Assembly: GCA_963920665.1 (NCBI GenBank)
Contig: OY987264.1
Coordinates: 21,060,906 to 21,124,905, forward strand
Reading direction: 5' to 3'
Length of the DNA: 64,000 nt
DNA from: Straminergon stramineum
Taxonomy: Eukaryota > Streptophyta > Bryopsida > Hypnales > Calliergonaceae
Shown here: in pieces, positions 25,540-50,237 of the stretch
Layout of the letters: each line of letters begins with the position of its first letter
Numbering within the stretch: position 1 is the stretch's first letter
The notes under the pieces: model-generated
What the model saw: the letters and a program-made list of their open reading frames with translations, nothing else
What the model was told of the DNA's origin: nothing
The model's database searches: none
Translations under genes and position numbers: made by a program

Positions 25540-26051
25540 AATTTCTACTAGTCAATTCAACAATTTGACCATTCCACCTAGTGGGCGATAATATTGATTC
25601 AATGCCCACTTGAAAATTGCCTATAGATGGACGATTGGATTTAAGTCAAGCAATTGAGCTAGCCAAGGCAAAAGTGTAAAACACCATTGAAAAAAATACT
25701 CTATAAACATCTTAGTGGTATCCACATGAGCATTGTCTTGTTGAAAAATAACATAAGGAGGGTTCGAGTGAAACTTGCAAATTGTTTGGTACACATTTTG
25801 TTCCAAGATCTTTCAATATTGATGTTGGTTTATGCAACCTTCAACTTTGCATACTACTCCCAATCCATGGATGGACATATTTTTCCAAATGATAATCCCT
25901 TCACCACAGTGTTTTACTATCTAAAAAACACTTTGAGATAAAAATTGTCTTGAGTCATGCATCTAACACCAAGACATCTCATCTGAACAAAAGCGGTTGA
26001 TCTTAGATTCATTTGAGAAGATAACTCAACTCCAATCATCTATAGTCCAAT
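25540..26051 (-). pseudogene. Tc1/mariner transposase, C-terminal half (split by the giant element)
   Basis: On the minus strand from 26051 the frame reads WTIDDWS, stop, VIFSNESKINRFCSDEMSW. Later it reads VIFQQDNAHVDTTKMF and LPWLAQLLDLNP. These match the DDE catalytic core of Tc1/mariner transposases: the DES block, the QQDNA block and the PAQ-PDLNP block. The first acidic position is changed to Asn in SNES. Several stops interrupt the frame (for example one in DWS-stop and one before the QQDNA block), so it is dead. It begins exactly at the CAAT duplication bordering the 23.8-kb element, and its N-terminal half continues at 49821-50237. Confidence 0.88.
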
Positions 26052-26100
26052 AACACAATATTCATTATTTTGGGAGGTTTAGACTCTCTCAAAATAATGT
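26052..26100. repeat. Left terminal inverted repeat and subterminal hairpin
   Basis: AACACAATATTCATTA (26052-26067) is the left TIR. It overlaps a stem-loop: CATTATTTTGGGAG (26063) pairs with CTCTCAAAATAATG (to 26099) with one mismatch. Such a hairpin beside the end could be recognised by the transposase; that is inference. Confidence 0.85.
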
Positions 26101-26293
26101 TATCCATTTAGATGCTAAAAACTGAGATTTCGTTTTCGCCAATTTAGGTTGACAAATGTTAAGTTTATTAATTCGAAAGTAGAATTTCCATTAAAATGAG
26201 AGTTTTTAGGGTTAATAAGCCCTGCATTACATTTTGTTCATTGTGAGAGGAAAACTCCGATTCATATAAGTGAAGTTCATGTCCTAGACTAAA

Positions 26294-26409
26294 CACCAAG
26301 TCATGACCTCTACGGTTGGTTGTAAGGAGTTGTATATGTCATTCAAGTGGTCTGGGTTTGATTCCTATTGAATTCGTCTGAGCGCACGATCTATACACAT
26401 GACTTGGTG
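26294..26409 (+). other. Hairpin-bounded tRNA-like / SINE-like block
   Basis: CACCAAGTCATG (26294-26305) and CATGACTTGGTG (26398-26409) are exact inverted repeats. Between them GGGTTTGATTCC (26354-26365) differs by one base from a pol III B box, and TACGGTTGGTTG lies where an A box might be. No cloverleaf was established, so a tRNA-derived SINE is only a possibility. Confidence 0.3.
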
Positions 26410-26845
26410 CTGCTAAGTGAGATTCGCAAGCAAGAAAGTTGTAACAACCAACCCAACCCCTATCTAAAATGTGACAAGTGCTTTACACGTTAACAAAATA
26501 AAAGGTGGGTATACCCACTATCCTTTTGGTCGAAATGGATGTACAATTTCAAATGACATATATACAACAATAATTATCTAAACAATTTCATTGAATAATA
26601 TTGAATATCAAACACCATAAAAAAATACATATAATAATACTATATGTACTTGCAATTGTTCTATATACATATAATATATTCTTGCTAACATATATGCAAT
26701 ACCAAACAATAATATAAAATCAATCAAGTGAATCCTATTTCATGTACTATAAAATTTAAATTCCAATTACTACACGAATAATGATGATGTGCTACTACAT
26801 TATTACAAAATGTGTAGTACATATACACAACCATATCTTTGGTTA

Positions 26846-29686
26846 TCAAGTGTACAATGCGAGACTCTGGTTGATGACTTCAATTTGAACAACCGGAATC
26901 TTGATCAAGCAATGGATGGTGTCCTTCCTTATAGTAGAACTCCATGCTGTCATTAGAGCATTTGTGTGCTCCCAAACCGGCGGCTCAGTTTCATCGACCT
27001 TCCAACGCAAACCTCTATCGCTGTCCCATCCAGTGTAGTTGTTTTGAACTTCCCTGCTTCTTGATGTTGGACGGAAATACTGAATGAGGATGCAATTCGG
27101 TTACTCTGGATTACTGTTTGGATCTGACAATGCCCTTGCAATCCAAACAGGTCGACTGTCACCATCCATGAGGCGAACTACAACAAAGTACCCATTGTAC
27201 AAATCATGCTCCACCCTAAACGATGGTTCTGGACGACCAGATCGAGGCCCAACGTACGCTTCATCCTCCGCAAACTCTTCACGGTCCTCGCCATCATCCC
27301 CTAATTGATCCACTCGTATTCGTTGAACATGTGTTTTGGGCCAAAAACCGTCCCGCAAAACTGTAGAGCTTGGTAACGGTTCTTGTATTGCTACCCTCAC
27401 ATCACGCCAATAGTGAACCAAATGCTCATACTGCCTTCGGTATTCTCCAGTAACATCTGTATTAAACAAGTTCTCCTAGTACTTCTCAAATCCAGATATA
27501 CCTTTCACAATGTCATTGGCGCCTTTCATTTCCATAGGTTGTACTGGCATTGGTACTCCACGAGGCCACTGACTTTGCCCTTCATCATCTTCTTTCCAAA
27601 ACTTAATGGGCCTACCATTTTTCCCTTTCCAATCTACATCAATGCACTTCAACTTGTACTTCATGACCGGAATTCCATCTGAATCTAGGTAGAACTTCAC
27701 TTGTTGTGGCTTTGTGTGCCCAATTAGAATATCATCACCATCAATAAATGAACCAGCAATGAACCCCTTGAAATCGGGCACCTCTTCAATTAGATGTGGG
27801 ATAGTAGGAATGGATTCTACATCCATGAACGACTTCATGAGTGCAAGGATAGTCGGAAAACTCTCCTTCTTCAGAAGCATACTCCATCTTCCAAACAAAG
27901 CATCTATGTCGTCATGAGTATGACCAACAATCATGAAACTCACATACACTTCACAAAAGATCTTGTTCGCGACTAGTAGAGACCAAAAACAATATACATA
28001 TCTATTTTTGTTGTCCTCGGTGGCATTGTCCATTTGCACGTTCAGAATAGGCGGTAATGGCGTTGCTGGAAGTAAAGGTTCTGGTGGTGGGGGTAGTGAT
28101 GCTAGACACATTTCCTTATCCTTGAGCAATGCTCTAAACAAAGATGTCGCCCCTGCATTTTCAAACAACTTCCTAGAAGATGACTTCGGTGCTTCTTCAA
28201 GGTCTCGCAACAACTTTGCCATTGACCCAATGGTGTAATTTGAATCATGCTTAAAGAGATCCAAACCATAATGTGCATAGCGGACATCAGCATGACCATG
28301 CGTAATCATGCCAATGACGGACACAGGCAACTTCGTTAAACCATCAAGGTCCTTACTTTTATGGGAAAAGATTGGAGAAGCTGTTTTTGCATGATCCATC
28401 TTGTCGTGCATGATTGTAAGACATTCATGTGGAGATGTTTGAGACCAATATCGGTTCACATAATAGAGCTCCCTATGCGCGCGAGCCTTGGCAAGGTGTC
28501 TGTCCAGTCTCGTCGACCACAACAGAGCACTTTCAGACCCAGAAAGAGCACCCTTCACGAGCTCATGTAATTTGTCACAAACAACGCATCGAGCAAAGTT
28601 GTCTCCGGGTTGCTTCACATCATACTCAGGGAACTTAGTAGACCTGATCTTGCTCAATTTCAATGTTGAAACCTTCTTCAGTTCGAAAGCCACATTCACT
28701 TCGTTGATTTTTGCCATCTGACCCTTCCACTGAAACATAGCCGGCAAAATTTTTGACACGATTTTTTCTCTTGATTTGAGCATGTGGGATTTATGTGGCA
28801 TGTAATCCGCTTCCTTTTCCAAGATGCACTTCAAAGTTATAGACGCTTGTTCCATATGTTGCCTTGGCTTCAACATTCCCAAATTACCATGGTCCCTGGC
28901 TTCCCGACCATCCTTCATGGCATATTTTTTGTAGCGGTAGAATGTAGACTCTGGAACCCCAGCAATATGCATCCAAGCTCGTATACACACATCTATCTCA
29001 TCTATCATGACCACCCTTCTCCCTCGTGAATCACGATGCATCTGCCTATGTACTTCAGTCTTGAGATACGTTCTATGCTTGAACGTTGAATTTTGGTACA
29101 TGCGAAGCCAGAAAGCTCGAATCTTCTCTCTTGGAAACGGCTGGACGCAGTTTTTATTACAACAAACTTTGCTTGACACCATATTGATGGACTCTTGACT
29201 GAGGAGGTCTTTCATTTTGATGCATGTCTCGCATGGCGGCTTTCGAATAGTACTTGAATATGATCGGCTACTCTTCGATGACGGTGGATTTGCATGAATC
29301 GCTTGGAGACGGTTGTAATTATCTCTGATTGCATGGTCATGTAGACTTGCCCCACAACAGTGCACAAGCTTAATATCCCAGGCTACTAAAGCATGTACCC
29401 GCTCTTGGGGGATGTCTTCTTCAGATTGAGTCTTTGAGATGTGTACTGCCACATGAGTGTCCCCAAGGGAACCATCAGCACCGAGGACTAGATCCGAGTT
29501 CACACTGTGGCAAATGCCTTCACCAACAAGAGTTCCCACGTTATTGTATAGAGTAACAACACTTGTATTCCAGCATCGTCTTAGAAATCCTTCGCACTCT
29601 GGAATGTCAACCTCCATTTCGTCTTGCCCTTACACTTCATCATCAGACCAAACAATACTGTTGAAGGGGACTTCTTTAGAACTCAT
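26846..29686 (-). pseudogene. DUF7869-like protein of the giant element (candidate transposase/nuclease), frame interrupted by three TAR codons
   Basis: One frame runs from ATG 29686 to TGA 26846-26848 (946 codons). It is interrupted only by TAA at 29630-29632, TAG at 27476-27478 and TAA at 27101-27103; the longest uninterrupted part is 29617-27476 (713 aa). Around residue 130 there is a cysteine group (PPCETC) followed by CCNKNC. In the middle are CVVCDKLHELV and HLAKARAHRELYY. The C-terminal half has QMDNATEDNKNRYVY followed by FMIVGHTHDDIDALFGRW. The Q-DN / NKN / GHTH-D-D arrangement is typical of the DUF7869-type proteins common in mobile DNA of plants, algae and animals, whose activity is unproven. 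The acidic residues could form an RNase H-like catalytic site (inference). The gene is intronless and reads leftward from the left palindrome array. It is the best transposase candidate in the element. Confidence 0.6.
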
Positions 29687-29895
29687 TTTACCTGTACCTG
29701 TATATACGAATAATGTGGTACCGAGTTATACATGAATGCTCTCGAATAAAGAAAACAGAATCAGGTATTCAAATTGACTATAATAGGTAGAGTCACCCTA
29801 AATAGGAAACATTGAAAAGTACATTAAAAAGTCTAAAAATGAAAGTCTCCAAGTTATATTCAGATCTATTAAGTTTGACAAATCGATTAATCTCG

Positions 29896-30710
29896 TTAGA
29901 TCGACTCAACCTAATCTATAGAATGTACAAATCAATACCCAGACAATAAAAATAGTAGATCATTGAAACTTTTTAAAAGTATTTTCAACCCATATTCATT
30001 AATAACACAATTGACACATCTATGATTTATCCGGAATGTGTCAATTTAGAAATGGTTTTGTTCATTGGTTGAAAGCGACGTGCAGTTTAGGTCGTCTCGA
30101 CCTACAAGCACACAATCAGTTTCTGAGGACTCCATCTTTAATGGACATGAAGATTATCGTTATTTGCAATTACCAACAATTCAACGACATCAATTAAATC
30201 AATAAAGCAAGTTAGGTCGACTCGACCTCATCTGTAAAATTACGAAATCAATACCCAAACAAAAAACAAAGTAGATCATTGTTAATTTTAAAAACAATTT
30301 AAAAACAATATTCATTAATAACATGATTGACACATCTGTGATTTATCAGGAATGTTTCAATTTTAAAATGTTTTTGTTCTTTGGTTAAAAGCGACGAGAA
30401 CTTTAGGTCGGCTCCACCTAAAAGCGCAAACAAAGTATCTGAGGACTTTGACTTTGATGGACATCCAGATTCTCGTTTTGCAATTAAATCAATTAAGTCC
30501 ATAGAGCACGTTAGGTCGACTCGACCTAATCTACACAGCGTTCATATGGAGATCTGAATAATAAATAGAAAATAACATATCTATCAACATCAACTGTTCT
30601 CATAGTTAAAGTAGCAATTATAGTCTTCGTCCATTTCAAGTTGACTCGACCTGATCTATATGCATGAATCGAACTGTTCTCTTGTGGTCATTTAGGTCGA
30701 CTCGACCTAA
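29896..30710. promoter_or_regulatory. Left palindrome array (7 copies) within a 316-bp tandem duplication
   Basis: Cores similar to AGGTCGACTCGACCT start at 29898, 30089, 30214, 30405, 30513, 30638 and 30694. All have C as the central base on the plus strand. The DNA from about 29912 to 30530 is two diverged direct repeats with a 316-bp period (ATCAATACCC at 29931 and 30247; TCATTAATAACA in both), each carrying two palindromes. The array is immediately upstream of the leftward DUF7869-like gene, so it may be its promoter or a protein-binding array. Function is inference. Confidence 0.8.
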
Positions 30711-33700: not shown

Positions 33701-33871
33701 CTATAATACCTACAAAATTCCTATTTCTAAATTTGTGCTTATTGTAAAAATTTACCTTACATTTATCATTGTAGCGAGAGTGACCCTTTCATAGAAAAAG
33801 AACTAAGCTCATAATTCTTCTATTCATTTGAATGAAATAAAAATTATTTATTCCAAGGAAGTAATTATGTT
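30711..33871. other. AT-rich interior of the giant element, with telomere-type tracts
   Basis: No gene was recognised. A degenerate TTTAGGG tract lies at 31785-31836, and a shorter one lies at about 33628-33645. The copia element follows; its left GTAAC target duplication is at 33872-33876. Confidence 0.5.
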
Positions 33872-33876
33872 GTAAC

Positions 33877-34174
33877 TATTGAAAAAGAGAACAAAAGAAT
33901 GTATTTCAATGAAGAGGAACACAAACAAGTGTGAGAAAGGGATATTCAACCCATGCTAGGGGTTGCCTTCTTATACTACTCTATTAGCAAGTGCAATGAC
34001 TAACCATATGGGATAATTGTCTAAGAGGTATGCCCCTCTCTATAGGCACCACTTAAAGGACTTCCCCTCTCTAATATCTCATTGCTTTTACTACAAACAA
34101 CACATAACTAAGGTTAGCCCATACTTAAGACCTACTTCAAACAACGTATGACATCCTACTCACTTCCTTCAACA
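33877..34174 (-). repeat. 3' LTR of the copia element
   Basis: This 298-bp copy is identical base for base to 38857-39154. On the coding strand it follows a purine-rich polypurine tract (AAAGTGGGAG, complement of 34175-34184). Confidence 0.97.
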
Positions 34175-37100
34175 CTCCCACTTTGTTTGTTGTTAAACAA
34201 TGTCAAGCCCATCTCCTTGCGTAGAACTTCATGTCGTGGCTTGGCAAGGGCCTTTGTAAGCACATCCGCCACCATGCGCTCCGTAGAAATGTACTTCATC
34301 TCAATCACCTCCACTTCAACCTTCTCACGAATGAAATGGTGTTGAATGTCGATGTGTTTGCTCCGAGAATGATGGATTGGATTCTTCATCAAGGCAATGG
34401 CGCCTTGATTGTCACACATGATGAGTGTTGCCTTCTTTTGCTCCAATCCAACATCACTCATAAGTTGTCTTAGCCAGATGGCCTCCCTTGTGCATTGGCT
34501 AATGGCCATGTACTCCGCCTCGGTGGTAGACAATGCAATTGTGGGTTGTTTCTTTGAATTCTATGAAATGGCACCACCTCCAAGCATAAACACGTAGCCT
34601 GTTGTGGACCTCCTATCGGTTGCATCTCCAGCCCAATCTGCATCACAAAAGCCCACCAATGCAAGGCTCTTGCCTCCAAGTACCAACTTGGCATCCAAAG
34701 AACCTTGAAGGTATCGCATGACCCTCTTGACCGCTGCCCAATGCTTTGGGCCACATTTGGCCATGTGTTGGCTCACTACACTCATTGCAAATGCAAGGTC
34801 AGGCCTTGTAGCCACCATCGCATACATCAAGCTCCCCACTGCAGCTTTATATGGCACTTCTTGCATTTCCGCCTTCACACCTTCATACTCTTCATCCGTT
34901 AGCTTGGGCATCTTTTCCTTCACATCAAGAGGTGTGCCAACGGATTTGCACCCCTCCATGTTGAAGCGCTTCAACACTCCTTTGATGTACTTGCTTTGGC
35001 TCATGGTGATGGTGTGTGTCGCCCTTTGCCTTGTAAACTCCACACCAAGGCAATAGTGTAGCTCTCCAAGGTCGCTCATATCATATTGACTCTTCAACAT
35101 AGCCTTCACTTCAACCATCTTGTCAATGGTGTTGGTCATGATAATCAAGTCATCTACATAAACGACAACAATCACCAAATATGCACTTGTTTGCTTGATG
35201 TAAAGAGAGTGGTCGGCATGACTCCTCGTGTAGCCCTCCCTTGCAAACAATGCATCCACATCCATATACCATGCTTTTCCCGATTGACTCAACCCATAGA
35301 TGGCCTTCTTGAGCTTACACTTGAGATGTTCACGACCCTTTTGAACAAAACCCTTGGGCTGGTCCATATAGATCACCTCGTCAAGCCAAGGATTGAGAAA
35401 CGCCGTGATAACATCTATTTGGTGCATCTCCAAGTCCATAGCTGCCCCAATCGCCGCCATGCATCGAATGGTGCAAAATTTGGCAACGGGAGCAAAGGTC
35501 TCATTGAAGTCCACCCCTTCAACTTGAGAATACCCCTTGGCTACCAATCTTGCCTTGTAGCGCACAATATTGCCCGATGCATCTCTTAGTACAAAACACC
35601 CACTTGCATCCAACACTTGTACGATCATGAGGAAGGGGAGAGAGTTCCCATGTACCTTTGGCCGTTAGTGAGGCATACTCCTCTTGCATGGCTTTCTCCC
35701 ACTTGCTTGCATCCGTGCTCTTCATGGCTTCCTCCATGTTGCGTGGATCATTTTCGTGAGCCAAATTGGCATGCTCCACTTGCTCTTGTGGCAAGATGTG
35801 ATTTTTCCACCATTCTCCAAGCGGCCTCCGCTCCCTTGTAGGATATCTTGGCTCCTTGGAAGCATCTCCCTCCTCATCTTCACTTGGGGAGGAGCTCGTA
35901 GATGGACTTGTCTTCTCCTTGGGTGTTGGTGGTGTCTCATCAAGATCCTCTTCATCCTTGAGCAAAACCTCCATGCTTGGAGATTTGTCCACCTCATGCG
36001 TGGCATCCTTGTTGCTCCCACTTGGACTCATCTCCACAGCATCGCTTACTCCTTGCTTGTTTTCCATGAAAGTGACATCTCGACTCTTGATGATCTTCTT
36101 GGTCTCCAAACACATCAACCTATATGCCTTGGAGTCCTCACAATAGCCCAACAACAAGCACTTGATGCCCTTGGCATCAAGCTTGGAGCGCTTGGGACTC
36201 AAATCCAAGGCATATGCAATGCATCCAAAGATGCGCATGTGACCAATGTTGGGCCTTCTTCCACTCCATGCTTCTTGTGGCGTCATGGATGCAACTGCAC
36301 TAGTGGGGCAACGATTGCATGTATAGGCTGCATTCGATACGGCCTCCACCCAAAGATCATACTTAAGGTCTTGAGCATGCAACATGGCACGAGCCATCTC
36401 CACAAGTGTGCGATTGGCACGCTCAGCCACACCATTTTGTTGTGGAGTATAAGGGGTCGAAGTTTGGTGTTGAATGCCATGCTCCCTCATAAAAGCCTCA
36501 AAGGCCTTGGACATGTATTCCCCTCCATTGTCCGACCTCAATACCTTCACCTTTTGCCCCGATTCATTCTCCACAAGTGCCTTCCATACCTTGAACCTCT
36601 CAAACACTTCACTCTTGCACTTGAGCATGAACACCCACACCTTCCTTGAAAAATCATCAATGAAGGTCAAGAAATACCTTGCACCACCCATGGAAGGGGT
36701 CTTCATTGGGCCACACACATCAGAGTGCACAATCTCCAACACCTCGGTTGCCCTCGTTGCTCCATCGCTTGGAAACGGTTGCCTCGCTTGCTTGCCTTCA
36801 ATGCAAGCCTCACAATTGAGATCACAAGAGCCCTTCTCCACTTGCATGCCACCCACCATGCTTTGAAGGCGCTTGACACTCTTCTCATTAAGGTGGCCCA
36901 ATCTCTTGTGCCATAACTCCAAAGAGTGTTGATGGAATGGCCCTTGGGCCAAACACGCCATGCTTGTGCCGTTCACCACTTTGAACTTCAATTGGTACAA
37001 GTTGCCCTCTCTTGATGCCGTGACAATTGTCCCTCCATTGGGTGCCCCTAAAATGCAACCCTTGTTGTTGAATTGCACCTTCAAATCTTGTGACACCAAC

Positions 37101-38143
37101 TTGCTCACCAAGAGCAAATTGGCATGCAACTTGGGCACATGCAACACATCTTGGATGCGAATTTTCCTCAATTGGCCCTTCACCTCCACCTCCACTACAA
37201 TGCAACCTATGCCAATTGCATCCACCACGCCATTGTCCCCCAAATACACCTTGCGGTTGCTAATAGATTGATAAGTGAGAAATGCTTGCCTATGTGGGGT
37301 CATGTGTTGTGTTGCACCCGAGTCGATGATCCACTTGAACATGTTGGTGTTGTCATACCCATCATTGGCAGCAAACGCAAACTCCTCCTCCACACTTGCC
37401 TTGTTTGCACTCTCCTTCTTGGGTTGCTTACAAAACCTTGCAAGGTGGCCGGGCTTACCACAATTGTAGCACGTGCATGTCTCCTTGCGTGGTTGTGAGC
37501 TCCCCCCTTGGCCATTTCGTAAGTAGAGTGCTGCCCCTCCTTCTTGGGTCTCATTCTCCTTCCTCTTGGCCATCTCATGCATCAATCTTGCGGTGATAAA
37601 GTCAAGAGTGAGCTCTGACATGGGTCTTGTCTCCAATGCCGTGATGAGATACTCATAAGAAGGTGGCAAGCTCTCAAGCAAAGTCATAACCATGTCTCCA
37701 TCCGTGACGGGCACCTCCAAACAAGCCAATTGGTCCGCAAGAGCCTTCACCTTGTTGATGTGGTCTAGCATGTCTTCGTTCTCTTGCATCTTGCATGTGA
37801 AGAACTTGCGTCGAATGAATAACATGTTGGATAAACTCTTTGTTTCATGGATGTTGCACAATACCTTCCATGCTTCCGCGGGTCCCTTGCATGCTCGAAC
37901 ATGTGCAAGTTGCCTATCCACAAGATTGCAAGCAATCATGGAGAAGGCCTTCTTGACCCTCCTCTCATAGGATTTCTTGACTTTGGCATCGGCATCAGTT
38001 GGGGGTGGTTCCTTGGTGTCTTCCACAATCTCCCACAAGTCCTTCTCCACTAAGATCATCTCCATCTTGAACTTCCATAGACCAAAGTTCTCTCCATTGA
38101 ACTTGTCAATGACCCTCACGTTGTCTCCATCACTAGTGGCCAT
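34156..38143 (-). pseudogene. copia gag-pol polyprotein, broken
   Basis: The start is ATG 38143 (MATSDGDNVRV); the open frame extends a few codons further but without an ATG. In order it has a gag domain with the zinc knuckle CYNCGKPGHLARFC; a protease with DSGATQHM; an integrase with an HHCC zinc region (HKRLGHLN, CEACIEG) and the acidic positions in HSDVCGP and DNGGEY; a reverse transcriptase with YVDDLIIM; and an RNase H beginning STTEAEYMA. The frame changes near 35,600 at a run of four T on the coding strand, at the start of reverse transcriptase. A TAG at 34561-34563 then separates reverse transcriptase from RNase H, where the family normally has Trp. As written this copy cannot make a complete polyprotein. 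Confidence 0.95.
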
Positions 38144-38280
38144 GTTGGATGATTCCTCCTCCAATATAAGCCCAAGTGATTCTAATCACTCCAATCTAAT
38201 CTCCAAATGCCCAAGCAACCCTCTTGTGGTTGCACTATGTCCAATAAGGCCCCAAATCACACTAGTAAGACCCTTTATGG

Positions 38281-38575
38281 TCCTAATCTCTCAATTCAGA
38301 CCCCAAGTAGTCTAAATCTCTCCAATGCACACTCTATTGGACTAATACTCTCAAATCAAACCTCAAGTGATGCAAATCTTCGCAATGCACACTCTATTGG
38401 ACTAATACTCCCAAATCAGACCTCAAGTGATGCAAATCTCTCCAATGCACACTCTATTGAACTAATACTCTCAATTCATACCCCAAGTGATTCGAATCAC
38501 TCCAATGCACACTCTATTGGACTAATACTTTCAACTCAGACCTCAAATGATGCAAATCTCTCCAATGCGCACTAA
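38281..38575. repeat. 60-bp tandem repeat in the copia leader
   Basis: About 4.5 copies of a 60-bp unit (key words CACTCTATTGGACTAATACT, CCTCAAGTGATGCAAATC) lie between the primer-binding site and gag. The copies differ at several positions. Frames through the repeat are not coding. Confidence 0.85.
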
Positions 38576-38841
38576 AATGCTCCAAATCTCTCAAATGAAG
38601 CCCTAGATGCACAAATCAACACCTATAGCAGACTAGGTCAAATCCTAGCTTCCAACTAAGGCTCTAAGACGCTAAATCAACCCTCAATGAGCACAAATGA
38701 TATCAAACCAAGAAAATACCTCACTAAAAAGTAAAAGTCTTGAATACAAATGCTCCAAACGACCCTAAACTCCACTTGCTCCAATAGTCCTCCACCAACA
38801 CACCTTGCAATGAGATCAAATCTCTACTAGCAACTCACATG

Positions 38842-38856
38842 AGTGGGCCCATAACC
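38842..38856 (-). other. Primer-binding site complementary to the initiator tRNA-Met anticodon arm
   Basis: Directly after the 5' LTR the coding strand reads GGTTATGGGCCCACT. Its complement, GTGGGCCCATAACC, is the anticodon stem-loop sequence of plant initiator tRNA-Met. Priming by a half tRNA cut in the anticodon loop is established for Drosophila copia, whereas most plant copia elements pair with the tRNA 3' end. Confidence 0.8.
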
Positions 38857-39154
38857 TATTGAAAAAGAGAACAAAAGAATGTATTTCAATGAAGAGGAAC
38901 ACAAACAAGTGTGAGAAAGGGATATTCAACCCATGCTAGGGGTTGCCTTCTTATACTACTCTATTAGCAAGTGCAATGACTAACCATATGGGATAATTGT
39001 CTAAGAGGTATGCCCCTCTCTATAGGCACCACTTAAAGGACTTCCCCTCTCTAATATCTCATTGCTTTTACTACAAACAACACATAACTAAGGTTAGCCC
39101 ATACTTAAGACCTACTTCAAACAACGTATGACATCCTACTCACTTCCTTCAACA
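38857..39154 (-). repeat. 5' LTR of the copia element
   Basis: This 298-bp copy is identical to 33877-34174 and borders the GTAAC duplication at 39155-39159. Promoter and polyadenylation signals should lie inside but were not pinned down. Confidence 0.97.
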
Positions 39155-39159
39155 GTAAC

Positions 39160-40098: not shown

Positions 40099-40328
40099 AT
40101 ACTCGTAAACGTCGTGTTCGACGTATATTGGTTCATAAATGACAAATAATTTGTCTATATAGTACGAAACTACAACTATTCATTCTTGGAATTTTGTATA
40201 GAAAGGAGAGACATTCTCATATGTTTTAACCTCTATAGTAAAGCTTTATTTTTTTTTGAATGGGGTGATGTCATATGGTTCTGAAAAGGTTGATTTCCAC
40301 GATCCACACTTTCTTCTTTAAATGTTAA
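40099..40328. mobile_element. Small TTAA-type element, family B (copy 4, eroded)
   Basis: It shares ACTATTCATTCTTGGAATTT and GGTGATGTCATATGGTTC with the other copies. The right end is TAAATGTTAA. The left end (about 40099) has lost its TTAA. It lies inside the giant element. Confidence 0.65.
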
Positions 40329-41027: not shown

Positions 41028-41465
41028 TGGGTATGTTTTCATGGGTATTGAAGTACGGGTACATTCTTCGTGGATAAAGGGGCAGCGGTATATGGGGCGG
41101 GTATGTAGGCGGGTATGTAGAGGGTGGTTATGGATTGGGCGGGTATGTAGAGGGCGGGTATGGGTTGGGCAGGTACAAGTAGTTTGGCATCGCCACTAGG
41201 GTTTGGGGCTCCTGTCGTTGTGCTCCTGCTCCTGGAAACCTTCATGCTCCTCGTGGCGCTCATGCTTCCCCCTCGTTGTGTTGTGCTCCCTCCTCGTTGT
41301 TGCTCCTACTCCTCTCTCTTGTCTCTTGCTCTCCCCTCGCCACTCTTGCTCTTCTTTCTCCCCTCGTCGCTCTTGCTCCCCCCTCTCCGCGCTCCTGCTC
41401 CTGCTCCTCGTATTGTGCTCCTCCTCGTGTTGTGCTCCTTGCTCCTCCTCTCCTCATGTTGTGCT
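41028..41465. repeat. GGGCGGGTATG minisatellite and adjacent CTCCTG pyrimidine-rich tract
   Basis: From 41028 to about 41175 variants of GGGCGGGTATGTAGAGG recur irregularly. From about 41216 to 41465 follows a strand-biased run of CTCCT(G/C)CTC words. The open frames here are low-complexity artefacts. The block is inside the giant element and differs sharply from its AT-rich surroundings. Confidence 0.7.
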
Positions 41466-42160
41466 CCTGCTATTGGTATTGTTGTTGGTGTCGCTGCACG
41501 GTTTGTACGAATTGCACAAGTTTGTTTTGTCACTTCTTTTGCTTTGAATGTCATTGAAATTTGTAGTAATGCTTTAGTAAGTTTTTTTGTTAGTATTTGT
41601 GGCATTTGTATTTGTATGTTTGGGGTTTAGGTTGAGGGTTTAGGGATTCTGAAGTCCACTTTCATAGTTCAGTTGTTTTGGATTGTCCTTTGAAATTATG
41701 TACTTTGTGTCATGGTTTTTGGATTATGGGGGTCTGAATGTGTATGAATGTCTGCTTGAATGTGATAACAAAATGCTTGAATGCAATGACATACGTTCAA
41801 AGTACCATTGCATTTGGTGTAGGGTTTTGGCAATTCATTGTATTAGAGTAGATTCACGAATGTATAGCAGCCTTATAGTATTGCATTGTGCTATACAATG
41901 CTCGTTTGAATTTAGTGTAAAATGAGATTGCAATGCACTGAGTGAGAGAGTGTGTTTTTAAAACATAGCGATCTGATTTCGCCTTCAATTCTCCACAATT
42001 TGACATCCACTATGAAAAACCTGCTGGACTATTTCGCTTGGAAGCGGATTATTCAAGAACAAATTTGTTTTCCACAGATTTACCAACAGATTCACTCACA
42101 TTTTGCTTGCAGTGAACCAAATTGACCTTCACTAGCCGAGGTAATCCTTTCACCAATGCA

Positions 42161-42822
42161 TTTTAGGTCGATGTCACTTTAGGTCGATTGTTCTTGTAGA
42201 GGCTTTGGAAATTCATTCGTGTAATTTAATTACACAAACGCGAAAATAGGGCGCCATTTTAGGTCGGGTCAACCTAAAATGCCACACATCTCCCCGGTCG
42301 TGATGATATGCAATCCACCTATTATACATAAAAAGGAAGGCTGAGCACCAGAACACCTTCAATCATGTTGAAAGGAGAACAATTCACGTCGAGTCAACCT
42401 AAAATGACACAAATGCACTTGCTCCATGACGGTAATATTTTCAAATATGAAATACTACCGAAACGACTAAATAATAATTATCCCAAATTAGATGTAAACA
42501 TTTAACAACTCAGGTCGAATCGACCTAAAATGTCCTCATGAAGAATCTCATAACATAAATATCCGTAACTAACATAGATGCGTAATACCAAATAGGTTGT
42601 TCAAATATATTGAGATTTGTAACGTATTCTAAAAAGTAAAGTAACTTCTTACGAAATAAATATAACAGACATAAAACCGGTTAGGTCGAGTCGATCTAAC
42701 CAGTACGAAACGAAAATGCACTGAACTAAAATCTTGAATATAATAAGGGACATCAATAACAATGTCCCGAAATTCTATGATATCCTAACTAAGTTAATAC
42801 GATTTAGGTTGAGTCGACCTAA
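42161..42822. promoter_or_regulatory. Right palindrome array (5 copies plus degraded half-sites)
   Basis: Cores similar to AGGTCGAGTCGACCT start at 42261, 42386, 42512, 42683 and 42806, with half-sites at 42164 and 42181. The central base is G, or A at 42512. Better copies extend to CATTTT on the left and AAAATG on the right, so the palindrome can reach 27 bp (for example 42255-42281). The last copy ends 44 bp before the ATG at 42864. This array mirrors the left one, so both divergent gene sets carry the same oriented palindrome upstream. Confidence 0.8.
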
Positions 42823-42863
42823 ACCAGCGTATAGCTAATACGATATTTACAATTGAAAGCAGA

Positions 42864-44333
42864 ATGGAAGAGCAGGTTCAAAAGCTTGAAGCCTTTTACA
42901 AGCGACTTGATATCACGCGGGACGAGGAAGATGGGGACGATTTCAAAAACGATGGGGATTACTGGGAATTCCAAGCACCAGAGAAGATGGAGAAATGGAG
43001 CCTCAAGATGATTCCCTTCAAAAATCTGATTTGCTTCTCCATGAAGTATAAGGATAGTGAACCATATTATCCAATCTCTTATGACAAAAAGATCAAAGAC
43101 ATCGCCTAAGACATTGAATCAATAATCAAGATCCATTATGTGACTGCGCAAACGGGGTTGAAGGACGAGGAGCAATACCACTTTACAATTGTGCTTGACT
43201 CAGCAAAAATCGATTTCAATATAACCCCATTTCTGGAATCTCTCCAGCCAACAAAGTACAAAACCGAAATTCCAGAGTTGGAAAGAAAGGTCGATTCAAA
43301 CTTTTTCAGGAATGTCGCTGGGAAGCCGTTTAGTGGAAAACAATTGTGCAATCGATTGCAGACACTTTTCATTGACTTTGCAATACTGACAGTAAAGCTT
43401 GACCTCAAACGTAAAAAAATGGTTTCTCCCTCAGTATCGCACGACGTGCCAAGCTAGGGAGAGGGCTAGGGATCTATGGGAACTCTAGGGACGCAACAAA
43501 GTCGTCGTATGTGGAGAAGTAAACAAGCAGCAACCCCTCCCACAGGAACAAGGAAGAGCAACCTGGCTTTCTCCTCGGGGAGACGAGGGGGAGAAGGTGC
43601 TCCTTCAATTTCAGTTGCTGGAGAGCAAAGCTTCGCGTCTACTATTACAGACGTGCCCGAGGCACATGACCCCAAGCGCAAGCATGGCTACAAACAGTCA
43701 ACAAAGGCCTACAAGAATTATTGGACCTCTTGTATAGACGCTTACATTTTTGAGATAAACGAAAAGAAGTCGATCTCTGTAGACCAACTCATTCCCGCAC
43801 CACCGGAAATGAACATCCGCAGTCACGAGCAAAGGCTAGCAGTGGATGTGTTGCACTATTTAGTGCACATGCCGGATAAATCCACGAAGCAAACACTCTA
43901 TGTCATGCCGGTAGACCAGATAGTGAAGCCCAGACCTACATCCTGGGACACCATAAAGAAGGGAGATTTTTACCTCATCAATGGTCAGCATAGTGTAACC
44001 GCCAGCAAGATGATGGTGGACATGAACCTGGATGAGGAGATCATCAAGCACTTTCGGAATTGGGATTGCTACGTCGTATGGTCAAATGACAACGAGAAGC
44101 TGAGGTCCATTTCCGCGTACTATAATAGAGTAAATCATTTTGTTGCGATGAAGCTGTCTTGGTCAACGAACATCCGAGGCACGAGAACTGTGTGGGAGAA
44201 CATAGGGAGGCCTAGAAATCCCAAGGAAGCTGTACCTGTTGGCACTCTCTCCAATGCCAGACGCAATGTAGAGAACAAGGCCAACTCCTTGAGATTCAAG
44301 GTCGGTGATTGCTTTCCTATAATAGGGGGCCAG
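42864..44333 (+). pseudogene. ParB-like (sulfiredoxin-fold) domain exon of the giant element
   Basis: The frame runs from ATG 42864 (MEEQVQKLEAFYKRLD) and is interrupted by TAA 43107-43109, TAG 43455-43457 and TAG 43467-43469. It then stays open to 44333. The C-terminal part (codons from about 43880) reads YVMPVDQIVKPR, GDFYLINGQHSVTASKMM, and WDCYVVWSNDNEKLRSISAYYNR. This is the layout of ParB N-terminal domains: a beta strand, a G-(Q/E)-(H/R)-(R/S) loop, a following helix, then an acidic turn and an Asn-containing helix. ParB family members bind CTP or act as nucleases or kinases, so the activity here is unknown. An intron follows (acceptor GTGTACAG at 44395-44402). The donor near 44333 does not keep phase as written, which suggests a lesion. 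Confidence in the fold is moderate. Confidence 0.5.
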
Positions 44334-44402
44334 TAAATGCATTTTAGATCGAGTCGACCTAAGTTGGCTTTGGACTTATGAGACCTGAATTGCACTGTGT
44401 AC

Positions 44403-46976
44403 AGGAGTTTACAAAGGCCATGAACAAGCGTTTCGCTATGCTTGACATCGTGAAGTCTCAGAAAGCCACTCGTGGGAAGGGTGGTGAGGAGAAGCTGAAA
44501 ATCACAAATGAATTGAAGATTATCACGGCTCCCGACGATGTTTTCAATTTGTGGAGTGAGGTCATCTCTAGTGCTGCACATGGAGAGCTCATAGATCCGG
44601 ACATGCTACTGAAATTTAACGAAAGGCCAGGTTGGAAGTCTGAAAACGGGAATTTGACGCATGAATTTTTCAAGTGGCTCGGAAATCTCTCGCTAGCTGA
44701 TCTTGCGAAACTTGTGAAGCACATTCTTAATCAGCAGACGGGAAAGCGAGATCAGCCATACCCAAAGGTGACAATAAAAATGATATCGTCTGTGCTCGAG
44801 AGCTACTACACTTGCAAGGAGTGGGTTGAGCGGTAGAAAAGGAAGTATTTGGTGAAGAAGGAGCTTCACCTTTTGGACCCGACACTTTGTTTGTTGAATG
44901 CCTTTGACGAGTTGAACGTTGAGAAGTGGCGAGAGTTCAAGTCTAATCAGAACATCACTAGCGCTACAATGAATGTGCTACTTGAGCAATCCGGTGATGA
45001 CTATTGGAAGGAGGCCAAGCAGACAAAGTCGAAGAATAAGAAGGCCGAGGAAATGTCACCCTATGCTGCTGAATTCTTCAAAGTGTTTTTGGAAAGGAGG
45101 TCAAACTTTGTGAAGCCGCTCTCCGTTGCTCATTATCGTCCATACGATATCAGCAATGACATGCATGCTGACTGGCCAAGAGGTGCATGGAAGGAGAATA
45201 TAGTGGAGGATGTAAGGTTCGGAGTGATTGACTTTAGATACACTCCAGGCGTCTTCAATAAGCTAAAGTGCAATCCAACTATGCCGTACTTCTTCGCCGT
45301 TCTTAAGTCGTTTCAGGAGAAGAAGAAGCCATTGTTGGAGGAGATCGGGACATGGCTCTTCATCTGCTTGGATTTAACCGAGAAAAATCAAGCTCTACAT
45401 TACGTGCACAGCAATGACTCAATGAGGTGCTCAGAGAGTATCAAATGGACTATTCTAACTATTGGCTAGCACAGCATGAGAGGATGGGAGATTACTCCCC
45501 AAACAACAGTAAGGCTGTGGAGAAAATTTATCTTACCTTCCTGTAGAGTCCTAACAACGCTGTTCTCATGACCCCAAAATCTGCTTACAGAGCACCAAAT
45601 ACTGACGTGTTCAATAAGCCAAGGGCCTATAATGAGCTGCATTATAGAGTTAATAATACGGAGCTACGGATGGAATTCTACCTTGTAATTCTGAAAAGGT
45701 TTTGCTTTACGGGGAGGAGTGTTATGTCCTTGTTTGCCGGTGCCAAGTTCACATGCGCAGCAATGGTATGATGTTTTAGGTCAAGTCGACCTGAATTTGC
45801 ATTTGTGATTTTAAGTTAGAGCAATCAAACATGCTATTTTCATTACTATCTAAAAAGGAAGGCTCTAATACTGTTATTCTCATTGGTAATGAACATCAAA
45901 ATCTGCCAATGACATTCAATTATGGTTACCTGTTTAGGTCGAGTCGACCTAAGATGTGCTTACTGAACCGAATCCTATTGTTTCCCTTTGTATGATTTTC
46001 AAATGAGCGGCCTTAATGTCTACGCTGTGGGAGTCTCCGATGAATCAGCAATGTGGACTGACATTGTGGAAATGGCCAAGTCGCTGGACATTAAGGACTT
46101 CAAGCCAAACGGGTACTTTGTCGATGAATCTAGATTTAGTCGAAAACCTGTAGGTGTGTCAACACCTACATCGATTAGGAGAAAGGGAAAGTCGGTGTGG
46201 GATCGATCCTACATGCCTTCAGGTCGGGGTGGTGGATCGCAACGCGAGAATATGGATTTCTCCTTCGACACAGAGGCCGATGACGATGACATGGATGCGG
46301 ATGACGTGCAAGAGGAGCAATGTACGCCACCAGCGCGGCTATCACAAAGCCTTCGAGGGTCATCTGCTTTGTCGCGGCCCTCTGTGGAGAGGCAACCAAC
46401 TAGCATCCCACCTCCAACCATGGGCGAGAAAAAAAGGAAGAGAGCCACCTATCGCAACGTGGATCTTCAGGTTGAGATAGCGTAGCTCAAAGCGGACAAA
46501 GTGAAGGATCGTGCTGATTCTCTGGAATTGTATGAGGAAACAAATAAACGAATGGACATGTTCTAGAACTTCATCATAGCGGCAACAAAACTTCAAGATG
46601 ACCAGTTTTCCGCCATTCAAAATCAGCTTGCAGGGATCAGGCCGCTGGCTTCGTTGCTACCATCACATGAATCTGGCCAGTTGATGATCCAAGGTCCCCT
46701 CACAAGTTCTATCAACAGAGGGGAATCTAGTCTCGCTCATCCCAGTGCTATTTCTCCCGGTTTGGCTCCGACCTCCTTTGTTGTCCCAACTCCTCCTCCT
46801 CCAAAGGATGATCGACCCGCAACTCCAGCTCTACCAGTAGAGCCTGAGGATGAAGGGACGCAGGTGGATGCAACGCCACCATCGGCCACTCTTGCCGAAG
46901 GTGTGGATGTTGTTGTCAGAGAAGGCTTGGCGGCGGACCTCGACCAGAATGAGCTCTCACCCAGCATGAATGTACT
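44403..46976 (+). pseudogene. Putative DNA-methyltransferase-like exons with coiled-coil/proline-rich tail
   Basis: Coding continues from 44403 (QEFTKAMNKRFAML) with TAG at 44834 and 45544, a one-base frame shift near 45420, and an intron from 45771 to about 46002 holding two palindromes. The intron acceptor reads CAA instead of CAG. Two motifs suggest a beta-class amino-methyltransferase. The first is FGVIDFRYTPG at about 45218-45250, where DPPY is expected. The second, downstream, is GRSVMSLFAGAKFTCAAM, which runs on across the intron into GLNVYAVGVSDES; it resembles the DPFAGSGTT...GVE binding loop for S-adenosylmethionine. ParB-like plus methyltransferase fusions are known in phages and bacteria. 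DFRY is not a canonical catalytic motif, so activity is doubtful. The tail has a charged region, a helical stretch with TAG at 46483 and 46564, and a proline-rich end. Confidence 0.35.
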
Positions 46977-47256
46977 AACTAGTTGTAATTTATAATCACT
47001 CGATGTCAAGTGTATAGTTAGGTCGACTCAAGCTGATTTGTAATATAGATTTTTTTGTAGTGGAAGACGTTTAGGAGCGAGGGGGCCTTCCATTTTGACA
47101 CAGGATTTATAGTGGAAAGAATCATCGTCATGAATTCTTCATTTTGAACATCAATTTCTGAACATCAATTTTGTATTTTAAATTCCAATGCGATTGAATG
47201 GAAGTATGTTCTCGATATCTTACAAATTGCCTCTCTATATATTCTTCTCTTGCAGG

Positions 47257-47533
47257 CCTTGTCAATGTGTTGAAAATGCCTTCATCCTCTGTTGCCCCAA
47301 CCCTTCACTCGCCTCCTCCACCATCACCTGTTCCCATTTCCCTAGAGACGAATTTATCTCCAACGCCAGGTGTAGTGACATCGCAACTGGGGGATAAGAC
47401 CGCAACAAAACTGTATCCAGGAGATGATGACACCTCCATTCCCGATGACGTGCTCATGGAGGTTAAGATTCCTGATCCAATCACTGTGGCGCTGGGAGAT
47501 CTGTTAGAGCCGGAAGCATCCTCTCGACAGTAG
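47257..47533 (+). pseudogene. Proline-rich exon of the giant element
   Basis: After a CTCTTGCAG acceptor the frame reads GLVNVLKMPSSSV and then acidic, proline-rich text to 47530. The exon seems to end at a TAG immediately before GTACAT. If the T were C this would be the usual CAG/GT exon end, and the frame then continues in phase into the exon at 47712. It has no recognisable domain and probably acts as a linker. Confidence 0.4.
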
Positions 47534-47711
47534 GTACATTGTGTTGCCTTTGATATTCTTGTGTATAGATTCCATTCAGCGTTAGGGGTGTTCCTTTCTT
47601 CTATCATTGATTTTTTATCCTTCATTGTGGGTTGCCATTTCGTTTCGCGTGAAGTCCAGAATTCGTCCCGTAGGGTAGTAATTGGCTACGAATGTGGCCG
47701 TTTGTTAGCAG

Positions 47712-48509
47712 GGATCGGATCCTCCATGTCGTTGTGGAGAATCGTCGAATGAAGTCAATGTTCCATTGAGGTCCAAGGTGACTGAGAAATGGCTCAACGT
47801 TGTCTTGGACCTGAATGGATTATTATGTGTCTGTGAGGATGCTAAAGTGAAGGGTTGGGCGAGGCACGTCGATGATGCGTCGCAGCCCCACTCCGCCACA
47901 ATTCCTGCGGTTGTAGGGCCGAAGGCTGTGTACGTCCGACCGGGGTGCGCACAATTCTTGCATGACTTAGGCCAAGTAGCTTTCGTTTCAATGTGGAGCT
48001 CAATGAAGAAGTCCACCACCGAAGAAGTCTGTGCGTATCTCTTCCAAGATCTGGAAATGCCCTTCCTCTTACTAGGACAGGATTCCTACACGAAGCTCAA
48101 GTTCAGGGATGGTTCCGGTCAAGTCACCATGTTCAAAGAGCCAGGGACGAGCAAGGAACTTTTCCTGAAAAACCTTGATACGTTGTTCAATGGCTCTTAT
48201 AGGAATTTCTTGCCCAAGAACACCATTGCAGTGGATGACAGTCCCGTTAAGCATGTCATGAACAACGCAGAGATCGTCATATTCTCGGACACTTGGAGTC
48301 ACAAAGGGAATGGTCCGAAGGACTCATTCCTTTTGGACGTTCTTCTTCCTTGGTTTAGGCGTGTGCATGACGCTAGAGATCAAGGGCTCAAATCGTTTAG
48401 GGGGAATAGTAAGGGGAAAATGGGGCGGAAAATGCTCTGCGACGAACGGACTTGTCGAGAGTATAATAGGATTATGGAAGTGGTCAGAGTGTCCTTGACT
48501 TTGAAATAG
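47712..48509 (+). CDS. FCP1-type HAD phosphatase domain of the giant element
   Basis: The open exon starts after a TTAGCAG acceptor and reads GSDPPCRCGESS before the domain. LNVVLDLNGLLCVCED corresponds to the nucleophile loop of FCP1/SCP phosphatases; plant FCP1-domain proteins often have DLNG rather than DLDG. FVSMWSSMKKS is motif II, the Lys in MFKEPGTSK may be motif III, and NTIAVDDSPVKHV carries the paired aspartates of motif IV. The family removes phosphate from RNA polymerase II C-terminal repeats and other proteins; this protein's substrate is unknown. Frame and spacing suggest it is the C-terminal part of the ParB/methyltransferase-like gene rather than a separate gene, but that is not proven. 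The stop is TAG. Confidence 0.6.
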   Translation, partial: GSDPPCRCGESSNEVNVPLRSKVTEKWLNVVLDLNGLLCVCEDAKVKGWARHVDDASQPHSATIPAVVGPKAVYVRPGCAQFLHDLGQVAFVSMWSSMKKSTTEEVCAYLFQDLEMPFLLLGQDSYTKLKFRDGSGQVTMFKEPGTSKELFLKNLDTLFNGSYRNFLPKNTIAVDDSPVKHVMNNAEIVIFSDTWSHKGNGPKDSFLLDVLLPWFRRVHDARDQGLKSFRGNSKGKMGRKMLCDERTCREYNRIMEVVRVSLTLK

Positions 48510-48983
48510 GATGCTTCTGTTTCCATAGATCAGGTCCATTTGAGCTACTAGGAAGTCAAATCGGGATATTTCATTCTTTGCGCATTTTAGGTCGGATCAA
48601 CCTTATTTGTATATAGTCATTAAGCGCGTTCGTTTCAAGTTTGTCCAATCCAATTTCTATAATAAATGTTGATTTGATGTTTGTCAATGGGAGACTCAAT
48701 GTTGTCATTCAGGTTGCTTCGACCTGATGTGTTTGTCTATGTTTATTGGATAAGTACACTACATGTTGCTCGTTTGTATTACTCATTGTGAATCCCTCTG
48801 GACTTCTTACGTGGAGAAACTCTAAGCGCCGCTTGATAGCAGAGTTTCGACAACGCACCACCTCCATTTCTAGATGCCAGTCTTCCATGTGCGGCATCAA
48901 TGGACTCCGTCCTGGACTACGGCTAGAACGCTATTCTCAGCACAAGGAACTTCCTGTGCTCGGCAGCCACTGCCAATTCGACA

Positions 48984-49478
48984 ATGGACTTCTCAATCGG
49001 GCCCATAGAAGACGGGGTCATGGACTGTCCGCCTAATGGAGCTCCCCGTTTGCCGAAATCATGCTCACCTTCTCCTTTGAAATTCAGAGATCCTATCGCT
49101 TCCAAAATGTCGCCATTTGCCTCGGACAGAATGCCACAAAGAAAATTATATGAAGACGTGGGAATTCCGAATTCCACAATGGAGACGAAGAATCCCCTAC
49201 CAATGGAACCCTGCAAACAAGTTCCCCTTGTACGATCTCATGGGCCTCCTATTCCTCGTCCGCGAGTACAATGTCTAGGTGTATGGAAGACCAAGACGCA
49301 CGATGGAGTGCCACCCAATAGATATGCTGCACCGGTTTTCGATGCTTGGGATCAAAAGATCTTACAACTCCAACAGCTTCAAGGGCTAAGGGAATATAAG
49401 AAGAATGATAACAGATACAATCGTGGACCCGAAATTATAAAGGCCATGGAACTACTGAAGAGTAAATCGGACATATAG
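48984..49478 (+). CDS. Uncharacterised last ORF/exon of the giant element
   Basis: The ATG at 48984 (MDFSIGPIEDGVMD) opens a 164-codon frame that ends in TAG. It is rich in Pro, Lys and Arg, with a glutamine/leucine helix near the end (QKILQLQQLQGLREYKK). I recognise no family. It follows two intron-like palindromes (48589, 48711) and may be the final exon of the rightward gene. It ends 342 bp before the right terminus of the element. Confidence 0.4.
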   Translation: MDFSIGPIEDGVMDCPPNGAPRLPKSCSPSPLKFRDPIASKMSPFASDRMPQRKLYEDVGIPNSTMETKNPLPMEPCKQVPLVRSHGPPIPRPRVQCLGVWKTKTHDGVPPNRYAAPVFDAWDQKILQLQQLQGLREYKKNDNRYNRGPEIIKAMELLKSKSDI

Positions 49479-49791
49479 ATGTTGTTCATATTTTTGATAC
49501 AGAGTCTATACATACATGTAAGCATTGTGCAGATATGCAGTTACTTACAACTCAATGATGGGGTGAATCATACTCACGGCAGTTATAGGCATTGTCACGA
49601 TTCTTTTGTGAATAGGAACTCAAAATCCGTATAGGAGTTCTATATGACAATCAAATGTGATTATACATACAAGAGTTTCTAAAAATAGAATCACCTTCTG
49701 CCACATTCTTCAGTACTCTTCCATGAGATTAGAGGGGTCTTGCATGAATTTGTGTGTCAAAACTAGTACTCCATACCTCTCATTTCATTGG

Positions 49792-49820
49792 AAATCTCTC
49801 ATTTTAATGAATATTGTGTT
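49792..49820. repeat. Right terminal inverted repeat of the giant element
   Basis: On the minus strand it reads AACACAATATTCATTA inward from 49820, then AAATGAGAGATTT. It is followed outside by CAAT (49821-49824) and then by Tc1/mariner coding sequence. Confidence 0.88.
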
Positions 49821-50237
49821 CAATGTTGGTGTGTCTTATAGCAAATTCTAAACATTCCTTGATATTTTTTTCTAGAAAGTTGAAGATTCTTTTTCTTCAC
49901 TTGTTCTTTCAAACTAGGTCTACAAAGAACATGCCTTACCATATTTGCACTCACTTGTACTCCAAAGTCTTTTTTTAATTGTCTACATGCATCTATTGCA
50001 GTACCTACCTTTCCATTAGTGACTTCTAATTCACAGGATCTTTCCATAGCTCTAGTAATTAACATGTGGTCCACCTTGACTCCCAAGCTTTGCATCAGGA
50101 ACATGTGCACATTGAATGTTATGAACACCACCTAAGCTCACAATCATGCAAAGATCTAAAGAATCTCTCATTCCAAACCCTCTCTCCAACTTGGAAATGA
50201 CATTCTCTCTTTGCTCAACTCTCAATGCTCTAGGCAT
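49821..50237 (-). pseudogene. Tc1/mariner transposase, N-terminal half (split by the giant element)
   Basis: The ATG at 50237 gives MPRALRVEQRENVISKLERG. After one frame change near 50,090 the sequence is VGTAIDACRQLKKDFGVQVS, then ANMVRHVLCRPSLKEQV, ending RICYKTHQH. This is the paired helix-turn-helix DNA-binding half of a Tc1/mariner transposase. It stops exactly at the terminus of the giant element and resumes at 26051 with WTIDDW, where the family continues with its catalytic core. It is an old, inactive copy. Confidence 0.85.

Follow-up and report, generated by a model that had tools for sequence, protein, structure and literature searches.

A transposon family of the moss Straminergon stramineum with a DUF7869 gene, a predicted ParB-like fold and family-specific palindromes

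What is the DNA that separates the two halves of one Tc1/mariner transposase gene by almost 24 kb in the moss Straminergon stramineum? The window analyzed here is the whole 64,000-bp stretch C2:21060906-21124905; the assembly comprises 59 contigs with a total of 326 Mb. We find that the intervening DNA is a member of a real DNA transposon family of the terminal inverted repeat (TIR) type, with exact ends, 4-bp target-site duplications and many copies in the genome. Below, we describe its ends and copies, its genes, foremost a DUF7869 gene (gene A) and a gene with a predicted ParB-like fold (gene B), and the palindromes that are arrayed beside these genes.

Ends of the element and its copies

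The boundaries of the element and the interrupted gene are as follows.

25652..26051, minus strand: Tc1/mariner transposase pseudogene, 3' half, at the host site
26048..26051: left target-site duplication CAAT, 4 bp
26052..26067, plus strand: perfect 16-bp inverted repeat AACACAATATTCATTA at the left terminus
49805..49820, minus strand: right terminal inverted repeat, perfect reverse complement of AACACAATATTCATTA
49821..49824: right target-site duplication CAAT, 4 bp
49820..50131, minus strand: Tc1/mariner transposase, 5' half, whose match to HTH_Tnp_Tc3_2 falls short of the Pfam threshold (16.7 versus 31.5 bits, E 0.0093)

The original prediction held that a 23.8-kb transposon had split the Tc1/mariner gene, that it ends in 16-bp perfect inverted repeats flanked by CAAT, and that its removal with one CAAT restores the transposase frame and so fixes the ends. 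The repeats and duplications are present at exactly the claimed positions, and the transposon extends from 26052 to 49820 (23,769 bp) with the termini AACA..TGTT and a repeat arm that continues to 29 bp at 83%. Fusing both flanks with a single CAAT gives a mariner frame that is open over the junction (...RICYKTHQHWTIDDW...), as predicted; the interrupted copy, a pseudogene, has stop codons beyond the junction region. A 303-nt probe made from the fused flanks matched the genome 22 times. Two of these matches are the window's own flanks, which end at the junction, and the remaining 20 span it uninterrupted with 68–88% identity, bearing out that the two halves were split by the intervening DNA. 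The best of them, C9:11162679-11162977, is 84% identical over probe positions 1–303 and, when aligned, has one CAAT at the insertion point. These uninterrupted stretches are empty-site paralogues, as distinct from an allelic empty site.

The 16-mer of the terminal repeat has 127 exact copies in the genome (71 forward, 56 reverse), compared with 10 for a reversed-string control. Pairing was analyzed for the first 100 of the 127 sites, and 36 of these form 18 adjacent convergent pairs that are 17.7–24.5 kb long. Six more convergent pairs have a spacing of 30–75 kb and tandem pairs occur once per strand; in the same 100 sites there are no convergent pairs shorter than 15 kb and no divergent pairs at 15–30 kb. 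We inspected 11 of the 18 convergent pairs, that is, the window copy and ten further elements. Ten of the 11 have exact 4-bp duplications, and the eleventh matches at three of four positions (agct/agat). The duplications differ at every site and have no fixed TA: that of the window copy is caat, and the exact ones of nine further elements are tatt, ttga, cttt, ctaa, tcct, atag, ttaa, tttc, and ctta. The original prediction had made itself dependent on a second copy sharing both termini, and ten such copies exist, nine of them with exact duplications, in a family that is indeed bounded by the repeat. Because the repeat is multicopy and the copies have duplications of their own, the ends are neither due to chance nor an assembly artefact; this alternative is refuted by the ten further copies together with the contiguous empty-site paralogues.

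Genes of the element and their order

Outside the palindromes, the following features were identified within the element.

26849..29725, minus strand: gene A, encoding a DUF7869 protein that is predicted to be a DDE/D transposase, with limits mapped from other copies
42864..46992, plus strand: gene B, predicted multi-exon model with a ParB-like fold in exon 1
47709..48506, plus strand: NIF/FCP1-like phosphatase open reading frame (ORF), 266 aa, open in the window copy (Pfam NIF, E 5.2e-12)
48927..49475, plus strand: last ORF, 183 aa (up to 212 aa in relatives), without a known family, open in the window copy
33876..39154, minus strand: nested Copia-like long terminal repeat (LTR) retrotransposon with identical 299-bp LTRs, named by eye from its ORFs

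The predicted span of 23.8 kb is exact, but it includes the Copia-like insert of ~5.3 kb, so that the transposon unit itself is ~18.5 kb; the four completely read relatives are 17.8–18.8 kb long. The Copia-like insertion is recent given that its LTRs are identical, and it contains a 60-bp tandem array (38283-38573) between the 5' LTR (38856-39154) and the long ORF. In the middle region of the unit (30.7–33.9 and 39.2–42.2 kb), no coding constraint was seen among the tblastn matches listed, and Rfam at the gathering threshold gave no match within the window.

Two coding regions, those of genes A and B, stand out when diverged copies are compared. Gene A is a single frame of ~950 aa in related copies. 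It is broken in the window copy, where the stop-free pieces are 27479-29629, 27104-27475, and 26849-27100, and its 3' end lies ~0.8 kb from the left terminus. The sole significant Pfam match of gene A is DUF7869 (PF25273, E 3.3e-39, 134.9 bits versus a cut-off of 26), a Pfam domain of unknown function. We compared gene A and 39 homologues with Pfam, and all 40 match DUF7869, whereas none matches a transposase family at an E value of 1, including EnSpm/CACTA, KDZ, and the MULE/VANDAL transposase domain. Chance-level matches of single homologues to 11 families (best E 0.0053) were set aside. A PDB profile search with gene A gave one chance-level match only, and Foldseek alone gave no hit with E below 0.001 for gene A or gene B. 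Structural modelling predicts that the DUF7869 protein has a DDE/D transposase fold, which makes cut-and-paste transposition of the DDE/D type likely. MazF-like and Argonaute entries were also listed in the fold comparison. The statement in the original prediction that the element carries no standard transposase, therefore, stands at the level of sequence families and does not extend to the predicted fold. Most of the listed homologues (120 of 177 for gene A, 42 of 42 for gene B) bear no species name; those that do come from Physcomitrium patens and Ceratodon purpureus, which points to a moss as the probable host. Moreover, 152 DUF7869 matches were obtained in the S. stramineum genome from the best 150 of 860 first-look candidates.

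The main risk to the novelty of this family is that it could correspond to Lanisha, a superfamily proposed by Maumus, McDaniel, and Carey, who reportedly work on the moss Ceratodon. Lanisha (Repbase Reports 2020, reference in PMC12730594) is, like the moss element, a proposed cut-and-paste superfamily, and the CMCT clade in which it is placed makes duplications of 2–5 bp, according to the available part of PMC12730594. It is the description of Lanisha given there that sets the two apart. Its clade has C(2)C and H(3-4)H pairs between the second D and the last E, whereas the invariant C357-x2-C360 and H417-x4-H422 of gene A precede D543, given the modelled catalytic residues. The description also reports a similarity to EnSpm, and none of the 40 gene A homologues matches EnSpm/CACTA or any other transposase family in Pfam at E 1. 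With the termini AACA..TGTT as a further difference, we consider the identity with Lanisha unlikely.

On sequence grounds, the moss family is thus probably a TIR DNA transposon superfamily of its own, and the element may belong to an undescribed major transposon group. In the available text of PMC4455052, Repbase is said to split superfamilies when their transposases fail to converge in PSI-BLAST; here, separation was judged by the Pfam comparison of the 40 proteins in place of PSI-BLAST convergence. Tc1/mariner elements such as Mos1 differ in their TA duplication, compared with the 4 bp, the 18-kb size, and the missing Pfam transposase match of the moss element. PpTc1 and PpTc2 are named as the DNA transposons among the expressed elements of P. 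patens in the part of PMC7466625 consulted.

Our models of the genes were built from open frames and splice-like dinucleotides. For gene B, they give blocks at approximately 42864-44300, 44405-45768, 45967-46482, and 46567-46992, the last one or two of which are possibly separate. In the window copy, the frame of gene B is interrupted by several in-frame stops and, apparently, shifts once. In the predicted structure, the middle domain of gene B has the three-dimensional fold of the ParB/Srx group. No ParB sequence match was found for gene B in PDB profile, Pfam, or NCBIfam searches, and chance-level Pfam matches of single homologues to 18 families (best E 0.022) were set aside. The motif GERR is the nucleotide-binding motif of the ParB CTPase clamp. 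The gene B alignment has mostly GQHS at this position and the Arg is not conserved, so the protein lacks this mark of a CTPase clamp.

The NIF domain of the phosphatase-like ORF scores 46.2 bits against a cut-off of 21.8, and the NCBIfam dullard-like model scores only 16.7 versus 139 bits. Motif I of such phosphatases is usually DxDx; here it reads DLNG, and catalytic activity is, therefore, uncertain. Among the NIF homologues, only P0221 (42% identity) bears a species-like label, that of an uncultured Synechococcales bin; its contig is 7.4 kb long and is perhaps moss DNA inside the bin. A gene B homologue (P0129) and a NIF homologue (P0218) are both on JGI contigs of 8,979 bp, which are probably one contig, and the pairing of gene B with NIF may also exist in metagenomes.

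The ratios of nonsynonymous to synonymous substitutions (dN/dS) were calculated pairwise between the window copy and up to ten copies, and the values include decay after insertion. They are 0.15–0.51 for the main part of gene A, 0.14–0.29 for the ParB block in the seven comparisons, out of nine, whose dS is finite, 0.06–0.57 for the other gene B blocks where finite, 0.14–0.37 for NIF and 0.15–0.67 for the last ORF. Gene A ends, however, in a block of 124 codons with values of 0.21–1.89, which is near neutral among the seven close copies. The cassette genes are, on these values, under mostly purifying selection. Seven copies are mostly 84–96% identical to the window copy at the nucleotide level, and E19 is 74–87% identical. 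In E23 and E27, the left 3.6 kb are 84–87% identical and the right part 70–80%, and gene A has a dS of 0.40–0.49 while dS is saturated for most gene B blocks. This pattern suggests that halves were exchanged between lineages, so that E23 (L023-L024) and E27 (L027-L028) are possible chimeras. These two, as well as E11, E15, E19, and E21, were partly read (1.0–5.9 kb as N).

Whole-genome protein searches, which score the best candidates only and give lower bounds, identified at least 57 gene A, 88 gene B, and 144 NIF loci. The analysis of gene order drew on all 144 NIF matches and, after the second piece of one gene had been dropped from each set, on 57 of the 58 matches for gene A and 88 of the 89 for gene B. 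Gene B lies divergently upstream of gene A at 5–40 kb for 45 of the 57 gene A loci, compared with one, two, and one for the other three arrangements, and the spacing is 9.1–10.9 kb in 32 of the 45. NIF is found on the same strand 2.5–12 kb downstream of gene B for 72 of 88 loci (other arrangements: one, none, and three), with a spacing of 4.1–5.0 kb in 60 of the 72, and alongside 52 of the 57 gene A copies. A more diverged gene B query supplied, by eye, a partner for five of the 12 gene A copies that had lacked one, which raises the linked copies to 50 of 57 and leaves seven without. The order gene A–gene B–NIF, the three genes that this test covers, is kept in diverged families; the gene B search set reaches down to 44% identity. 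C11 (17.4 Mb, 5.4% of the assembly) is strongly enriched in these loci, with 24 of 57 for gene A, 43 of 88 for gene B, and 78 of 144 for NIF; it is possibly a sex chromosome or else a heterochromatic one.

Intact and young relatives were also found. In at least one sister copy, on C3 near 23.01–23.02 Mb, the matches to gene A, exon 1 of gene B, and NIF are all stop-free. A candidate terminus for this sister, TGACGATATTCCATTA, was dropped as it was not found at other gene A copies of that family, and two pieces near the intact C3 element have no inverted 10-mer in common. Another DUF7869 family (L037-L041) has five copies that are 99.4–99.9% identical over ~4.9 kb, a sign of recent activity at the sequence level, and, 3' of gene A, a sharp boundary with the terminus AGGCAATTTCATTAAAATGG, which resembles that of the window element. 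Its distal end and its gene B were not found, and many of the end-search matches listed are other or short elements. Short inverted pairs of ~100–330 bp with RGKCAATTTCAT termini like the sister-family end occur at C1:5841393/5841710, C1:13041134/13041240, and C1:3458317/3458404 and are possibly miniature inverted-repeat transposable elements.

The size of the element, its several genes, and the missing short derivatives (first 100 terminal-repeat sites) might recall an integrated virus or virus-like element. A transposase-like gene, TIRs, and short duplications speak against this origin; 52 pattern matches in a viral contig collection included no confirmed relative of gene A, and capsid and polymerase domains were not found in the ORFs scanned, which lie outside the Copia-like insert. 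We regard a viral origin as very improbable. Elsewhere in the window, a host gene at 15507-17579 (plus strand) resembles cytidine deaminase, as recognized by eye.

Palindrome arrays

The noncoding parts of the element contain copies of a 19-bp dyad, TTAGGTCGASTCGACCTAA, at the following places.

29783..30710: eight palindromic sites, upstream of gene A
42259..42822: five palindromic sites, upstream of gene B
44344..44362: one palindromic site, first intron of gene B
45776..45952: two palindromic sites, second intron of gene B
47018..47036: one palindromic site, between coding blocks
48587..48605: one palindromic site, downstream of the NIF ORF and ahead of the last ORF

Genome-wide, 559 sites match the dyad with no more than one mismatch, compared with 0 for a reversed control. 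Allowing up to four mismatches, 18 sites are in the window element and 0 in the rest of the window; 15–18 are in each of four other completely read elements; among the partly read elements E23 has 20, E27 has 19, and the other four have 10–11; and 20 mononucleotide shuffles have 0 each. The palindromes cluster 5' of both divergent genes and in introns. In the window copy, all 18 lie outside the coding sequence, which makes up 43% of the unit (~4e-5 if placement were random, a rough estimate), and seven of the 11 spacings within clusters are 108–126 bp. E23 and E27 retain the palindromes, with a differing number per intron.

A sister-family stretch that we read has no TTAGGTCGASTCGACCTAA and contains a palindrome of its own, GTTTAGACCGCGCGGTCTAAAC, which is not found in the window element. 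GTTTAGACCGCGCGGTCTAAAC has 468 genome sites with at most two mismatches, compared with 0 for the control. We tested the clustering of 50 distinct sites, taken from the 100 of 468 matches listed, against 150 DUF7869 matches. Of 28 clusters, 19 lie 2.9–4.0 kb 5' of one of these DUF7869 domains, three lie ~17–18 kb away on the 5' side, one is otherwise within 20 kb, and five are near none. Sites at multiples of 60 bp are seen in the arrays C1:28818922-28819303, C3:1000620-1001181, and C7:19105978-19106239, and other listed arrays differ. Family-specific motifs in comparable places suggest self-recognition.

Two other roles of the palindromes need to be weighed. They could be partition or bridging sites at which the ParB-like protein loads, spreads, and holds the halves of the 18-kb element together for transposition, with no role in transcription. 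The predicted ParB fold of gene B, the two main palindrome clusters per element, the separation of ~13–14 kb between sister-family clusters, seen four times in the listed sites, and the spacings in 60-bp multiples in several sister arrays would all be compatible with this role. The palindromes of the window element, however, avoid the terminal 3.7 kb on the left and 1.2 kb on the right and lie in introns and promoter regions. In addition, the Arg of GERR is not a conserved residue, and no sign of spreading is seen. We regard this explanation as rather unlikely. Alternatively, a host transcription factor could bind the palindromes while the ParB-like and NIF-like genes serve other roles. The position at promoter regions is consistent with a host factor, and the gene B protein is so far a candidate binder. 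The motifs are, on the other hand, family-specific, with 0 reversed-control matches genome-wide, and the mutual absence of motifs between one sister-family stretch and the window element fits recognition by an element-encoded protein better. A host factor as the binder, accordingly, appears rather unlikely to us, to a similar degree.

A proposed self-encoded system for recognition and expression

We consider it probable that the family combines a DUF7869 transposase of the DDE/D type with a ParB-like protein that reads the family's palindromes and keeps the TIR element transcribed, in the manner of VANC. According to the model, the DUF7869 protein would cut and join the element ends. The self-encoded ParB-like protein, judging from its fold and the placement of the motifs, would bind the family palindromes of the introns and of both promoter regions; once bound, it would keep the element genes transcribed against silencing, perhaps together with the NIF/FCP1-like phosphatase. 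The FCP1-like protein could target RNA polymerase II. Such a mechanism would be VANC-like in its working, though the proteins are unrelated. More tentatively, and with less than even confidence, we propose that a DUF7869-based superfamily captured a ParB-type protein that co-evolves with family-specific arrays of parS-like palindromes inside the element and, as a means of sequence-specific self-recognition, serves anti-silencing or the organization of the 18-kb element, the FCP1-like phosphatase being its transcriptional arm.

In the parts of PMC5735166 and PMC10398659 available, VANC is described as binding short repeated motifs in introns and upstream noncoding parts of VANDAL transposons, where it induces the loss of silent marks, and protein and motif are described as co-evolving. 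The moss element is likewise a plant transposon with several genes; its short motifs recur in upstream regions and introns, are specific to the family and differ between related families. As described there, VANDAL elements differ in having a MULE transposase and the 9-mer YAGTATTAY, compared with DUF7869, a ParB fold, and a 19-bp dyad in the moss. The proposed function would be alike, with the moss protein as the putative binder of the motif.

Other transposons may also carry accessory genes that act on chromatin, as proposed for KDZ (Kyakuja-Dileera-Zisupton) and other fungal transposons with TET/JBP genes in the available part of PMC12730594. KDZ families are alike in this possible accessory function; their duplications are given there as 7–8 bp compared with 4 bp in the moss element, none of the 40 gene A homologues matches KDZ in Pfam, and the accessory genes are unrelated. 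Bacterial ParB, Noc, and KorB resemble gene B in the modelled fold of the middle domain and in being accompanied by palindrome arrays, and differ in that gene B has no sequence match, has mostly GQHS for GERR, and is set in a eukaryotic transposon. Our literature searches brought up no paper on DUF7869 and none that describes a transposon of a eukaryote with a ParB fold beside arrays of palindromes.

The link of DUF7869 to exact transposon ends and a predicted DDE/D fold gives this family a concrete, testable function. Since DUF7869 loci are numerous in the genome, these elements may represent a major repeat class in mosses. If the pairing of a ParB-like protein with family palindromes is real, it would be a second evolutionary solution to sequence-specific self-recognition of the kind that VANC provides.

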